A model generated the notes under the pieces. The model was not told where the DNA came from and did no database searches. It worked only from the letters and a program-made list of their open reading frames with translations. DNA of 45,256 bases from Cyanobacteria bacterium FACHB-63. GTDB lineage: Bacteria > Cyanobacteriota > Cyanobacteriia > Leptolyngbyales > Leptolyngbyaceae. Numbering within the stretch: the first letter of the stretch is position 1; each line of letters begins with the position of its first letter. Both the position numbers and the translations under genes were made by a program. This document shows positions 30,781 to 35,205 of the stretch, one piece after another. Location of the stretch: the NCBI GenBank assembly GCA_014695255.1, contig JACJNX010000084.1, positions 1 to 45,256 of the forward strand, given 5' to 3'.

Positions 30781-31504
30781 GAATCCTTTTATTCCGATGT
30801 CTGTTTATTGCGTAGTTCTACCGATATAGTAAACAGTGTCTCATAGGTGAAGAATCTCTCCATTGAGGTAGATCAGCTAGGTAATGCGTATTTGGAGTTA
30901 TGTTCCCGTGACGTTCCTTTAGGTTGCGGTGATGCCTGCTCGATCTCCCAAGGGATTACCCTGTGAGATTCCAACACAGTGTTGAAAACTCCACCCCGTA
31001 TGCTTCTCCACATGATGTGGAATTGATTTTTCATCAACGCTGATGAAAAAAGATTTCTCGGTACGAAGCCAGATTATTCACCAGGAATCCTTTAGGCACT
31101 TAATACCCGTAGCGGTAAAAAGCCCGCCCCGTGGGGTTTTGTTCAGGCTTGAGGAAAAGATTCCCTAAGTCCCATCCGTGGAGCCTGAAGAGTCTACGAT
31201 CCGTGAACACCTCGAAGGTTCCCTAAGTCATTCCTGTTACGCCTCTCCCCTGTCCACATTCCCGGAGTCGGTAAAGTGGCGATCCGCCTGACTTCCGCCT
31301 GCTACTTCGCACGAAACCTTAGCGCCTAAGCTTCTCCACGTCAGGGTGGAAAAGTCCGCCCTGTATGCTTTCCATCAAAGTGATAAAAAGTCCGCCCCGT
31401 GAGCCATTCCTAGGGGATTTCTTCCACCGAAGATCCGGGGGAAGTCCCTAAGTTCGTCCGCCACAGTCTGACACCCTAGAAGGGTGTATCCCTTGATTTT
31501 CCTA
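30781..31504. repeat. 724-bp hairpin- and repeat-rich non-coding region
   Basis: There is no credible ORF. Four degenerate copies of a unit AAAAGTCCGCCCYGTATGCTT occur near 30985-31005, 31117-31136, 31349-31370 and 31385-31403. Several carry a short hairpin beside them: TCCACATGATGTGGA near 31008-31022, TTTTTCATCA...TGATGAAAAA just after it, and TCCAC...GGTGGA near 31335-31350. CCCTAAGT occurs three times, the last in the leader of the RHH gene at 31505. It looks like decayed or structured repeats of a regulatory leader. Confidence 0.5.
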
Positions 31505-31714
31505 ATGGATGACTCCAGATATCCCGAAAGAATCACCGTCAGGCTTCCTCGCAAAGATGCGGCGTTGCTCCGGTCGATCGCTCGTCAAGAGATGACCAAT
31601 GTGAGTTCCCTAACCAGGCACGGCTTGATGTTGCTCGTTAAAGAGAAGCATCAACTCAATGCAATTGCTCAAGCAGCCGTAAAACGAGGGCAAACCTACC
31701 CTCTCGACGTTTAA
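31505..31714 (+). CDS. Ribbon-helix-helix (CopG/Arc-like) regulator, left copy
   Basis: From the ATG at 31505 this protein has 69 residues. The N-terminal strand RYPERITVRLPRKD is followed by two helices (AALLRSIARQE, SSLTRHGLMLLVKE), the RHH pattern of small DNA-binding dimers. It is about 75% identical by eye to the protein at 34388. Both are preceded by similar leaders (AGTCCCTAA...GTCCG...GACACC). It faces the CRISPR locus and is followed by a decayed copy of the gene that accompanies the right-hand paralog. Confidence 0.75.
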   Translation: MDDSRYPERITVRLPRKDAALLRSIARQEMTNVSSLTRHGLMLLVKEKHQLNAIAQAAVKRGQTYPLDV

Positions 31715-31742
31715 TCACTAACCCCACTTGGAGCAATCCCCA

Positions 31743-31935
31743 ATGTCCCAGAAACCCTCACAGAAAAACCTTAAGAAATACTAGAAATACTGGCTACGCG
31801 ATCGCTTTGTTGATTTGACGAGATCAACCGTATTTGTTTTCATTAATGGGCAATATCAGACAGTTCCGATGTTGAGATCAGCAAATTCCGCTCCCAAGCC
31901 GATCTCGATGTTCACTATGGATGTCCAAAGCCGGA
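31743..31935 (+). pseudogene. Decayed copy of the 96-residue protein gene at 34710
   Basis: The frame begins at ATG 31743 (MSQKPSQKN), meets TAG after 13 codons, and resumes as FVDLTRSTVFVFINGQYQTVP, which parallels HIDISRCTLFVKVDGMYIPVP of the intact protein. A frameshift near 31870 then gives KFRSQADLDVHYGCP, matching QFRSDEELAVHWGCP. Similarity ends at about 31932, exactly where the degenerate CRISPR repeat begins. This is a pseudogene of the second gene in a duplicated cassette, cut off by the CRISPR locus. Confidence 0.75.
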
Positions 31936-32258
31936 TAACCCTACTGCCCAGATTACGCCAATTGCAACTCAAGAATTTAACAGTTTGCACTTCACAACCG
32001 ACAAGTTTCAGCCCTACTGCCCAGATTGCGCCGACTGCAACTCCGCGATAGTCAAATGCACCCGTACCGCTTTTGAAGTTTCAGCCCTACCGCCCAGATT
32101 GCGCCGACTGCAACTTAGCCCTAGTTAACCCTAGGGCTTTTCTTATGGTGTTTCAGCCCTACCGCCCAGATTGCGCCGACTGCAACGTCTGATGCTGTAG
32201 ACAAGTCAACGGATGTAGAGCGTTTCAGCCCTACCGCCCAGATTGCGCCGACTGCAAC
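31932..32258 (-). CRISPR. CRISPR array: five 37-bp repeats, four 35-36-bp spacers
   Basis: Repeats are at 31932-31968 (degenerate), 32005-32041 (one change), 32078-32114, 32150-32186 and 32222-32258. On the plus strand they begin GTTTCAGCCC and end GACTGCAAC; on the minus strand they end GGGCTGAAAC. Spacers are unique: 36, 36, 35 and 35 bp. The degenerate repeat at the left end marks the trailer, so transcription should be leftward, away from and on the same strand as the nuclease gene at 32607. No Cas1, Cas2, Cas6 or Cascade genes are visible in the window. Confidence 0.95.
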
Positions 32259-32353
32259 TCCGCCCTTGCAAAACCTTACCGCTCAAGGTTTCTAGAGCAT
32301 ATTTTGGCAAAGGTCGTTTTTCGAGCAAAATTGCCAACGACAAATCAAGGCTT
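32259..32353 (-). ncRNA. Array leader or candidate guide-scaffold RNA with two hairpins
   Basis: These 95 bp between the array and the small ORF hold AAACCTT/AAGGTTT (32271-32277 and 32285-32291) and TTGGCAA/TTGCCAA (32304-32310 and 32331-32337). I could not find a convincing anti-repeat, so a tracrRNA is not shown. It is the natural place for a leader promoter or a scaffold. Confidence 0.3.
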
Positions 32354-32578
32354 TTAGGGAATCCTCGCTTCGGTTTGTCCGATTTTCGATGGTCCGGCTT
32401 TTCCTGGGACGCTAAGTCTGAGCTGTTCCCATGTTGCGGGATATCTGCGGAAATCTTGAATCTTAGCCTTCAAGATTCTTTTCAACCTCGCGGTCTCACC
32501 TTGCTCTAGCCATGCTTCGAGCCATCGCACTCCGAAGAATGCCTCAGGGTTAACTGTCCCGTCCAAACTACGGTACAC
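32354..32578 (-). CDS. Small ORF downstream of the nuclease, possibly its frameshifted extension
   Basis: A GTG at 32578 gives 74 residues (YRSLDGTVNPEAFFGVRWLE..., later KRILKAKIQDFRRYPATW). The frame stays open upstream through the nuclease stop (KITSRICEIDEVNGVKYV), overlapping the nuclease gene by about 12 codons in the +1 frame. The composition looks like real protein: aromatic-rich and helical. It may be a separate small gene or a C-terminal piece lost by a frameshift. I recognise no family. Confidence 0.5.
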   Translation of the reverse strand: MYRSLDGTVNPEAFFGVRWLEAWLEQGETARLKRILKAKIQDFRRYPATWEQLRLSVPGKAGPSKIGQTEARIP

Positions 32579-32606
32579 ATATTTTACCCCGTTTACCTCA
32601 TCAATC

Positions 32607-34166
32607 TCACAAATACGACTGGTGATTTTTCGCTGCGTTCAGATCGGCGTGTTGCTCCACAGAGAACAACTGACATCCCTCGTTCAAGCAATAGAATGCT
32701 GATTGAGTCCTGCGATCCCCCTTCTGTCCACAACAATGACAGATCTGTGAAGATGAGGGAGCCGGGGATAACTCAAAGCGCTTCCCTAATGCCTCCATCT
32801 TCTGTTTAGTTAACTCCCGAAGCTGTCCAATGCTTCTACGCTTTAGGGATTTGTTTAGACCACGCTTGGCGGAGCGTCCATTCTTCGCATAATTTTCACG
32901 TTCGTCGATTGGAGCGTCTTTAAGCTGCTGCAGCATATTCTGGAAGTTTGTATCCTCCCATGCCAACTCGTCGTGCGTTCTGGTCAACCGAGTTGATAGT
33001 TTGTGGTTGAAGGCTGAGATAGAGTTTCTCATTTGTTCTTGTAATCGAGCGATACGCTTCGCGTGATACTTTTCCTTCAGTGACTCAGGCTTAAACCCTT
33101 TCGTTGAGGGCAGTTCTAACCGTTGACGACGCTTCTCATATAGCCTTGAGAGTTCCTTTTGATGCTTCAAAATATGCCGCTCTAGCCGCTCTCTCGTCTG
33201 TTCAGGCTTTACAAACAAACCATTACTAGAAACGACAATATTCTTAACGCCAGGGTCAATCCCCGCGATTCTGCCAGTAGGTTTCTTAGCCTTCTCTGCT
33301 ACGCTCTCGCTAATGGCGATACAGGCGTAAAACCCGCTTGGCTGCTTGATGATCGTGATAGAGTTTCCTACCTCACCCTTGAGACGCTTCGCAAAATCTT
33401 TTTCAGCAATCTGGATTTTTCCAAATGTTTGAACCACGATCTCATTCTCTTCTGGCTCGTACTTCAGCTTTTGCGATTGCATGAGGGAATCCGTTTTAAT
33501 ATCCCGTCCCCTCCATTTGGGTTTAGAGAATTTTTTCTGTTTCACGTCAAGATAAGCTTTCCATGCCTTTGTCAGCTTCCCTTGCACTCCCACTATCCCC
33601 CCGATCCAATCAGAAGATTTAGGCGTTAATTTTGGCAGGTCTTGAGCTTCTCTCACAGTATTGAGTAGACCTACGTTGTCTAGGCTCTGTAGCTTTGTGA
33701 GTTCCTTGCCTGCGATAGTCACAGGTTTAAACGGCTCTGGGGGAATGCGTTGCCAGTTATTATCGCCGTTCAGTAATCTGTATCCGTTCTTCTTACATGT
33801 CTTACCTGTTTTGTTTGTGTATGTAATGGGATTATCAGGATCTCTAGCCCAGGTACGATCACAGGTTGCAATACGGCATGAAGCCCCAGAGAACGCATTA
33901 GATTCTGACAAGTAGATGGGAGCTTTGATAATGCCTTCAGTGTCAATCCCCTGCTTCTCTAGCTGCTTGTCAAGCCAGTCGTAGTATTTACGGTTGTGCA
34001 GTTGAAAGGCGACTTTTAATCCCTCATTCCAGACCCAATCTGCTTCAGCACACAAGCGATCGAAGATCTTAAGCTGCTCTGGAGTCAGCAACACTTTTGT
34101 CTTAATAGTTTTGACGTTTTTGTCGGCATCCGCTTTTTTGTCAGTCTTAATCTTATTGCTAGACAT
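32607..34166 (-). CDS. Miniature Cas12/TnpB-type RuvC nuclease (type V-U-like)
   Basis: The protein has 519 residues. It has a basic N-terminus, helical/recognition region to about 295, then split RuvC: RuvC-I D304 (AGIDPGVKNIVV), a long bridge-like helix (about 325-395), RuvC-II E404 (LAWEDTNFQNM), zinc ribbon C476/C479...C493/C498, and RuvC-III D508 (QHADLNAAKN). All three catalytic residues are present, unlike inactive Cas12k. It is longer than most IS605 TnpB proteins (about 400). It sits beside a CRISPR array on the same strand, as in type V-U systems of cyanobacteria. There is no tnpA, Tns or Cas1/2 gene nearby. It would be an RNA-guided DNA nuclease or binder. TnpB captured by chance remains possible. 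Confidence 0.8.
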   Translation of the reverse strand: MSSNKIKTDKKADADKNVKTIKTKVLLTPEQLKIFDRLCAEADWVWNEGLKVAFQLHNRKYYDWLDKQLEKQGIDTEGIIKAPIYLSESNAFSGASCRIATCDRTWARDPDNPITYTNKTGKTCKKNGYRLLNGDNNWQRIPPEPFKPVTIAGKELTKLQSLDNVGLLNTVREAQDLPKLTPKSSDWIGGIVGVQGKLTKAWKAYLDVKQKKFSKPKWRGRDIKTDSLMQSQKLKYEPEENEIVVQTFGKIQIAEKDFAKRLKGEVGNSITIIKQPSGFYACIAISESVAEKAKKPTGRIAGIDPGVKNIVVSSNGLFVKPEQTRERLERHILKHQKELSRLYEKRRQRLELPSTKGFKPESLKEKYHAKRIARLQEQMRNSISAFNHKLSTRLTRTHDELAWEDTNFQNMLQQLKDAPIDERENYAKNGRSAKRGLNKSLKRRSIGQLRELTKQKMEALGKRFELSPAPSSSQICHCCGQKGDRRTQSAFYCLNEGCQLFSVEQHADLNAAKNHQSYL

Positions 34167-34387
34167 ATTTCAGTTTCTTTGTGCCTCTTACTGTAAAGAC
34201 TCATGGCTATGGGTTATGTTGACCAAGATCACAACAGAGTGCCCATTGGTACACATCAAATTACAGGGCGCTTTAGCAAATCCTCAAGCCTTACCTGGTA
34301 GAAATCTCCCACCAAAAGACTAGGGGAGTCCCTAATCTTGTCCGACTGGGGCAGACACCTTAGAAGTATCTCCCCCCAATTTTTCCA

Positions 34388-34597
34388 ATGGAATCCCACA
34401 GATATCCCGAAAGAATCACGATCCGGCTCCCTCGCAAAGATGCGGCGTTATTGAGGTCGCTTGCGCGTCAGGAATCCACCGATATGTCATCACTGACCAG
34501 GCGCGGGTTAATGCTTTTGGTCAAAGAGAAGGCGCAACTCAACGAGATCGCTCAAGCCGCGCTTAAAAGGGGCAAAACATACCCCTTGGACTGCTAA
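34388..34597 (+). CDS. Ribbon-helix-helix regulator, right copy
   Basis: This 69-residue paralog of the protein at 31505 shares RYPERIT, RLPRKDAALLRS, SSLTR and GLMLLVKEK, ending KRGKTYPLD. It is divergent from the nuclease gene (221 bp between starts), so it could control both. It is followed by the intact 96-residue and 51-residue genes. Confidence 0.75.
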   Translation: MESHRYPERITIRLPRKDAALLRSLARQESTDMSSLTRRGLMLLVKEKAQLNEIAQAALKRGKTYPLDC

Positions 34598-34709
34598 ACC
34601 GTCCTAAGCGCTCTTAACATCCAAATCCCAAGCACAACTCTCTAGACCGACCTTACAGCCCATCCTCAGAGGGGCAATTCCATACTTTACCCAAAGGAAA
34701 ATCTCAAGC

Positions 34710-35000
34710 ATGTCTAAACCGAAAGAGCGGATCATCGTAAAAGATGAACGACCTGCATCGATCCACTACTATCCAGCCGCAGGTCATCACATAGACATCA
34801 GCCGTTGCACCTTGTTTGTCAAGGTTGATGGAATGTACATTCCAGTGCCGGAAGCGGTGGCGACACAGTTCCGATCTGATGAAGAATTGGCGGTGCATTG
34901 GGGTTGTCCAAATCGCCACGGACTACAGACCGCGATTATCCCTCCCCACGAAGTACCAGAAGTGTTTTATCAAACGGTGGAGCCAGATGCAAAGCTTTGA
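34710..35000 (+). CDS. Unknown 96-residue protein linked to the RHH regulator
   Basis: This intact member of the cassette (its decayed twin is at 31743) is soluble, with HIDISRCTLFVKVDGMYIPVP and QFRSDEELAVHWGCPNRHG near the middle and an acidic C-terminus. It starts at ATG 34710 with AAAGGAA upstream. Its end overlaps the next gene by 14 bp. I recognise no family. Conservation with the decayed copy supports real coding. Confidence 0.65.
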   Translation: MSKPKERIIVKDERPASIHYYPAAGHHIDISRCTLFVKVDGMYIPVPEAVATQFRSDEELAVHWGCPNRHGLQTAIIPPHEVPEVFYQTVEPDAKL

Positions 35001-35142
35001 AGACTTCCAGAAAAATCTTGAGCAGTCCCTAGCAGAGTCCAGCCAAAAGATTCTGGCAGAAGTAGCGCAGAAGCTTGAGCGCTCCGAGTCCGCAAAGAAG
35101 GCGCGACAAGAGCAGGAGATCGCTCGCGCACTCCTCCGATAA
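34987..35142 (+). CDS. Small coiled-coil protein, 51 residues
   Basis: The ATG at 34987 lies inside the end of the 96-residue gene (14-bp overlap). The product is almost wholly helical: FQKNLEQSLAESSQKILAEV then KLERSESAKKARQEQEIARA. Overlap suggests translational coupling. Unknown function; it may be the partner of the preceding protein. Confidence 0.55.
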   Translation: MQSFEDFQKNLEQSLAESSQKILAEVAQKLERSESAKKARQEQEIARALLR

Positions 35143-35163
35143 ATCCATAACTTGCACTAAAAC

Positions 35164-35198
35164 AATCCCAAGTAGATCTAATAGTCTTGCTTGGGATT
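35164..35198. terminator. Bidirectional terminator-like hairpin
   Basis: AATCCCAAG (35164-35172) pairs perfectly with CTTGGGATT (35190-35198) between convergent genes ending at 35142 and 35206. Confidence 0.5.
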
Positions 35199-35205
35199 CA
35201 CACTG

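Follow-up and report, generated by a model that had tools for sequence, protein, structure and literature searches.

The window, by which we mean the whole stretch of 45,256 nucleotides that was analysed, carries on its minus strand a minimal CRISPR locus of five 37-nt repeats, the last of them degenerate, and four spacers of 35–36 nt. This array lies 348 nt downstream of a gene encoding a RuvC nuclease of 519 aa on the same strand (32607–34166), which its ORF, profiles, PDB match, alignment and tree identify as a compact member of the Cas12p clade. Along the minus strand, repeat 1 (GTTGCAGTCGGCGCAATCTGGGCGGTAGGGCTGAAAC, 32222–32258) is followed by spacer 1 (35 nt, 32187–32221), repeat 2, which is identical to repeats 1 and 3 (32150–32186), spacer 2 (35 nt, 32115–32149), repeat 3 (32078–32114), spacer 3 (36 nt, 32042–32077), repeat 4 with one mismatch (32005–32041), spacer 4 (36 nt, 31969–32004) and the terminal degenerate repeat with 10 mismatches (31932–31968). 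The re-measured repeat positions and spacer lengths agree with a preliminary description of this DNA, which had also placed the array downstream of the nuclease on the same strand with its degenerate repeat at the far end. Four near-identical 37-mers at regular spacing are, as judged by inspection, far beyond chance. On the plus strand, spacer 2 reads by eye as an inverted repeat followed by T, resembling an intrinsic terminator.

The nuclease gene is a single locus in the 7.2-Mb genome, and a 20-nt core of the repeat (up to three mismatches allowed) was found at five sites, all inside this array. Because the repeat occurs at no other genome site, the array, judged by its repeat core, is not that of a Cas1 locus elsewhere, a case which the preliminary description had named as speaking against its reading. 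Cas1 was matched six times in the genome, with two of the matches next to each other; they lie on contigs C27, C31 and C90 and none on the contig of the window (C163), in line with the earlier remark that no cas1 lies nearby. Adaptation in trans is thus possible, and the spacers were either inherited or acquired through Cas1 encoded elsewhere in the genome. No transposase was found with Pfam among the ten flanking ORFs (28.1–39.1 kb), five of which had no family. Upstream of the locus, the DNA as far as 29917 shares 93% identity with that of a congener, where it sits on a 1.2-Mb contig, and the window is therefore probably chromosomal. None of seven congeners yielded DNA matching the CRISPR locus itself.

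The locus is flanked by a small gene present once on either side (31508–31714 and 34391–34597; 76% DNA identity). The two copies are ribbon-helix-helix-like by our own reading, with a match to DUF6290 just below the cut-off, and the gene with its short partner has three copies in the genome, the third on contig C23 (L099:3575-4149). By eye, 31812–31945 resembles a disrupted version of the 34710–35000 gene and abuts the degenerate repeat. The surroundings of the locus suggest a variable region more than they do a transposon.

The best named profiles for the nuclease were c2c8 and Cas12u2. It scored 176.2 bits against the c2c8/V-U2 model NF038192, whose cut-off of 350 was not reached, and 184 bits against Cas12u2. 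The phage kin L071, L028 and L082 also fell below the cut-off of NF038192, and the published V-U2 effector of phage CL131 passed it with 451 bits. The models of IS605/IS607 TnpB were not reached either (NF038281, 87.7 bits vs 425; NF038280, 47.2 vs 350), and the broad guided_TnpB model NF040570 gave 143.6 bits, above its cut-off of 100. The Cas12f2 profile gave 20.9 bits. The PADLOC Cas12f models gave up to 176 bits, and the best of them scores the CL131 V-U2 effector at 506.

The search of solved structures placed Cas12p first (9jfs/9jg3, E 3.5e-87), and the next chain had E 1.1e-8. Both entries, released on 2025-09-10, bear the title 'Cas12p-TrxA-guide RNA-target DNA complex'. The protein of the viral contig L071 (IMG/VR 3300023179_006844) is nearly identical to the PDB Cas12p chain over 613 residues, which indicates that the PDB Cas12p belongs to a phage-carried family. 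The literature searches returned no mention of 'Cas12p', and nothing on thioredoxin with CRISPR or Cas12p among the matches listed, so the link to TrxA is drawn from the PDB titles alone. One paper describes a subtype 'V-P' predicted to have an inactivated nuclease (PMC12669027). That name is not to be equated with the Cas12p of the PDB, as the phage Cas12p kin keep the catalytic triad.

Scanning viral contigs with the family alignment gave 19 loci, including 12 full-length relatives with 30–35% identity and E down to 2e-91, and a viral scan with the window protein alone as query gave no relative. Two Cylindrospermopsis phages matched at 30% identity over 96%. The same alignment, applied to genome contigs through no more than two peptide patterns, recovered 40 loci with a best E of 6e-27, and among the matches listed none began before residue 158. 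Three of 386 genomes sampled from the phylum matched at E <=1e-20, namely the genome itself and two distant ones (89 and 82 bits). Two of 42 genomes of the order matched the profile, again the genome itself and one distant genome, and the best protein matches in the seven congeners were distant as well (<=47 bits). Rescoring by tblastn gave 243–299 bits for the phage Cas12p kin and 136 bits for the viral L082. All relatives scoring at least 136 bits were viral, and the best genome locus, L007, reached 127 bits over nearly the whole length. Cellular relatives thus exist, and all those found are more distant than the phage kin.

The tree was built from 37 of the 80 recovered rows, the window included, after near-duplicates and short pieces had been dropped along with many of the TnpB-like rows. 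The window was sister to seven phage members (five array-type and two of the CrV type, after Cylindrospermopsis phage CrV) in a clade of eight at 100/100, and the seven phage members excluded it at 100/99. The viral L082 branched next, and the clade with the V-U2 effector of CL131 was the sister group. Since the tree was rooted by midpoint, the 'early-branching' position of the window depends on taking V-U2 and TnpB as outside groups, and the program warned of long branches, L082 among them. In this tree the window nuclease belongs with the Cas12p proteins of phages, and both V-U2 and TnpB fall outside that group.

These results bear on two other readings of the locus. An ordinary V-U2 (c2c8) member would account for c2c8 and Cas12u2 being the top named profiles and for the CL131-holding clade being the sister group. 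However, a score of 176 bits against the 350-bit cut-off that CL131 exceeds with 451, and a tree that joins the window to phage Cas12p at 100/100, make this reading very improbable. The preliminary description had assigned the locus to type V-U and had looked to a V-U clade placement for support. The real minimal type V locus stands, but it is not plain V-U, as the profile stays at about half the cut-off and the tree sets the nuclease beside Cas12p, apart from CL131 and its clade. Harder still to credit is a TnpB of the IS605/IS607 kind that has an array next to it by coincidence. The TnpB and OrfB matches and the broad guided_TnpB model above its cut-off would fit it, but the TnpB-like rows are far off in the tree, the kin carry arrays in the same position, and the repeat of the window is at no other genome site; nor were transposon ends or a TnpA noticed beside the gene. 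The tree thus places the window nuclease away from TnpB, and a placement within TnpB is what the preliminary description had named as weakening its view.

The RuvC triad (D304, E404, D508) was the same in 8/8 aligned family members, and the zinc-ribbon cysteines C476, C479, C493 and C498 were likewise kept in all eight, confirming what had been read from the single sequence. The intact triad and the associated array are the two features expected of a type V CRISPR-Cas system, and the window locus has both. Judged by these residues, the nuclease probably cuts DNA. The AlphaFold model was of low confidence (mean pLDDT 61). In the structure comparison it ranked closest to 9jg3 (Z 16.7; rmsd 13.7 with 426 aligned), then to 9jfs (Z 16.2; rmsd 13.6 with 394 aligned) and next to a TnpB (Z 11.7). 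The large rmsd to both Cas12p structures shows that domains are misplaced in the model.

Compared with the array-type phage members, the window nuclease is without 10+38 residues at residues 67–71 and without 10+30 residues at 291–299, before RuvC-I, and its C-terminus is shorter by 17 plus 12 or more residues. The layout is thus that of a shortened Cas12p and not a new domain order, and the suggestion of a new domain layout was not upheld. The absent C-terminal tail could be damage. Past the nuclease stop, a continuation in the +1 frame (32354–32606, 85 residues used) resembles by eye the C-terminal tail of the phage proteins, and a frameshift at the 3' end of the gene, real or from sequencing, is possible. 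Searching 20 genomes with this +1-frame peptide gave its own site and one weak match in the same genome (E 0.007, 31%, with an internal stop).

These features raise the question of a relic in decay. The locus would then have been a functional Cas12p-type system once, but would now be inactive after losing its tail, its acquisition and most of its spacers. The missing tail, the four spacers without found targets, the degenerate last repeat, and the lack of any DNA match in the seven congeners, with protein matches there of at most 47 bits, agree with such decay. On the other hand, the 519-aa frame is open and every catalytic and zinc residue is kept at ~35% identity to the kin, four repeats are near-identical, and a 17-nt element next to the gene is kept at 16/17 positions. 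We therefore consider a relic unlikely.

The 348-nt interval from the nuclease stop to the first repeat (32259–32606, minus strand) is proposed to be a tracrRNA gene. In nine phage contigs the same interval measures 285–336 nt. It opens there with ACCGCAGTTTGG[A/G]CGGG, and its hairpins show two-sided changes at 8/26 pairs across six sequences, of which some are almost the same. The window carries the conserved element ACCGTAGTTTGGACGGG (32558–32574, minus strand), the proposed 5' end of the tracrRNA, which is 16/17 identical to that of phage L079. This 17-nt element was present in 10/10 array-type phage contigs, several near-identical, and in the window. The proposed interval RNA of the window opens in accordance with the pattern ACCGYAGTTTGGRCGGG, which was loosened at one letter, Y, so as to include the window where the phages read C. 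A form of 18 nt, one base longer, occurred in 1/386 genomes of the phylum, the window's own, and in 0/385 others. The exact form was not found in L028, L075, L076, L029 or L082. The CrV-type contigs L028, L075 and L076 hold 2, 4 and 1 copies of a variant, ACCGYAGTTC.GGCGG, and CL131 (L029) and L082 had neither the exact element nor the variant.

A candidate -10 hexamer, TAAAAT (32581–32586, minus strand), stands 6 nt before ACCG. A TANNNT hexamer was found at exactly this distance in 19/30 copies listed including the window, or 18/29 others, in a list from which many duplicates were dropped and in which some copies from near-identical contigs were kept. TTGACA lies 17 nt further upstream of the hexamer in all eight phage array-type copies listed; it is missing in the window, where no good -35 was found. 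The covariance model R1, built from the phage tracrRNA-like genes, gave a match in the window that was weak but at the matching place (32467–32577, minus strand; 10.1 bits, E 0.03 over 3.8 kb with filters off). With default filters the R1 search of 23 sources did not return the window even at E 10. These observations lend good support to the 5' end of a homologous RNA but not to its remainder.

Shuffled sequences gave an anti-repeat of equally good duplex energy in 152/300 cases for the window, 185/300 for L070, 8/300 for L071 and 1/300 for L081, so the best anti-repeat of the window does not exceed what shuffling yields. Folding of the interval was at most mildly better than that of shuffles (z -1.14 over 322 nt and -1.95 over a chosen 180-nt stretch), as was also seen in L071 (z -1.01). 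Rfam gave no match within 31000–35200. The guide mode can still be narrowed, since the stretch from nuclease to array seems to hold a tracrRNA-like gene.

Searches with the array stretch gave nothing convincing, the best E being 1 in phages, 4 in plasmids and 0.09 in the own genome. The own-genome match of E 0.09, the best to a site outside the array, involves the degenerate repeat, and matches touching a spacer had E >=2. For spacers 1, 3 and 4, seeds of 20 nt searched without mismatches had no match in the viral contigs. This bears on another alternative, a guide-directed DNA binder that silences genes without cutting, as is described for Cas12m and suggested for small V-U effectors. Cas12m binds without cutting (PMC11013384), and V-U effectors have been suggested to be too small to cut and maybe regulatory, a suggestion relayed in the CL131 paper (PMC6293099). 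Against such a silencer speak the RuvC triad and the zinc ribbon, neither of which is disrupted, and the absence of a convincing spacer match in the own genome, and we regard it as quite improbable.

Nine of ten array-type phage contigs, several near-identical, have the array 285–336 nt downstream of the nuclease, and the tenth (L074) ends before the expected place of the array. L079 and L080 are identical at 293/294 positions of the interval DNA and at 1831/1866 of the genes, and they have one spacer in common out of 13 and 19. One common spacer in such near-identical loci is a sign of spacer turnover. A spacer of L070 (L070:5398-5433) matches the cas12p genes of related phages (33/36 in L071) and, with one mismatch, its own cas12p gene. 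The 5' flank is TTTG or CTTG. Matches of this kind suggest contests between phages or self-control; the spacers of the window offer no hint of this sort. Another array, accompanied by a tracrRNA-like copy, lies at L070:1-1001 in the same phage contig. The phage matches of L071 spacer 9 were dismissed as a low-complexity TGTTCCC run, and the L081 arrays had no phage match.

The CrV phage MH636380 (L142, L143) is arranged differently, with one nuclease gene, an annotated array ~34 kb away, further stray repeats and ten scattered tracrRNA-like copies (3 in 1–50000 and 7 in 50001–100000). In this phage, a single nuclease may work for a large number of scattered guide genes. A CrV spacer (L143:39449-39484) matches the phage's own tracrRNA-like copies (33/36 at L142:883), perhaps for self-control.

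Taken together, the locus is a real, new, compact, chromosomal variant of the Cas12p-type system. As far as can be read from sequence, we put the probability at roughly 0.7 that this compact locus on the chromosome is a type V effector system belonging to the Cas12p clade, made up of nuclease, tracrRNA and array, and works by guided DNA cutting. The interval would be transcribed as a tracrRNA starting near ACCGTAG, which would pair with the pre-crRNA for processing by a host RNase. The nuclease would then bring the crRNA, with the repeat at its 5' end and the spacer at its 3' end, to a double-stranded DNA target next to a 5' PAM, and RuvC would cut this target, presumably in defence against mobile DNA.

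It is tempting to go further and see in the window a compact chromosomal form that is still alive, works without thioredoxin, stands near the root of Cas12p and continues to defend a cyanobacterium, with the phage lineage later gaining the two inserts and a basic tail, perhaps to recruit host TrxA, and dispersing its guide genes. We offer this scenario tentatively and think it rather doubtful. As Cas12p was otherwise found here only in phages, this relative may show how a phage weapon began. A chromosomal relative outside the sampled phage members and without the three segments makes it testable which parts of Cas12p thioredoxin needs, and also whether the phage weapon came from host defence or the reverse. 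The protein is also a small candidate nuclease.

Among known systems, Cas12f, Cas12k and Cas12m are also small type V effectors derived from TnpB, but their similarity to the window nuclease is much weaker. Cas12f and Cas12k use a tracrRNA, and Cas12k is not known to cut. The V-U2 (c2c8) system of the Aphanizomenon phage CL131 belongs to the sister clade and shares a small Cas12 with an array; it is likewise a minimal locus of cyanobacteria and their phages (PMC6293099). It differs in its repeat, in the window reaching half of the c2c8 cut-off, and in the 17-nt element, which is absent from the 8.9-kb stretch of CL131 that was covered. The Cylindrospermopsis phage CrV carries Cas12p kin of the same clade (30% identity over 96%), whereas its array is ~34 kb off the nuclease and its ten scattered tracrRNA-like copies bear the variant element. 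The closest likeness is to Cas12p itself (9jfs, 9jg3; L071). At ~35% identity, and with 519 aa vs about 622, the window member sits on a bacterial chromosome and is without ~48 residues near residue 70, ~40 before RuvC-I and a C-terminal tail of ~30 residues. It nevertheless shares with Cas12p homology over most of the length, the RuvC triad and the zinc ribbon, together with the order of gene, interval and array, 37-nt repeats ending in GAAAC and the 17-nt element that opens the interval RNA.
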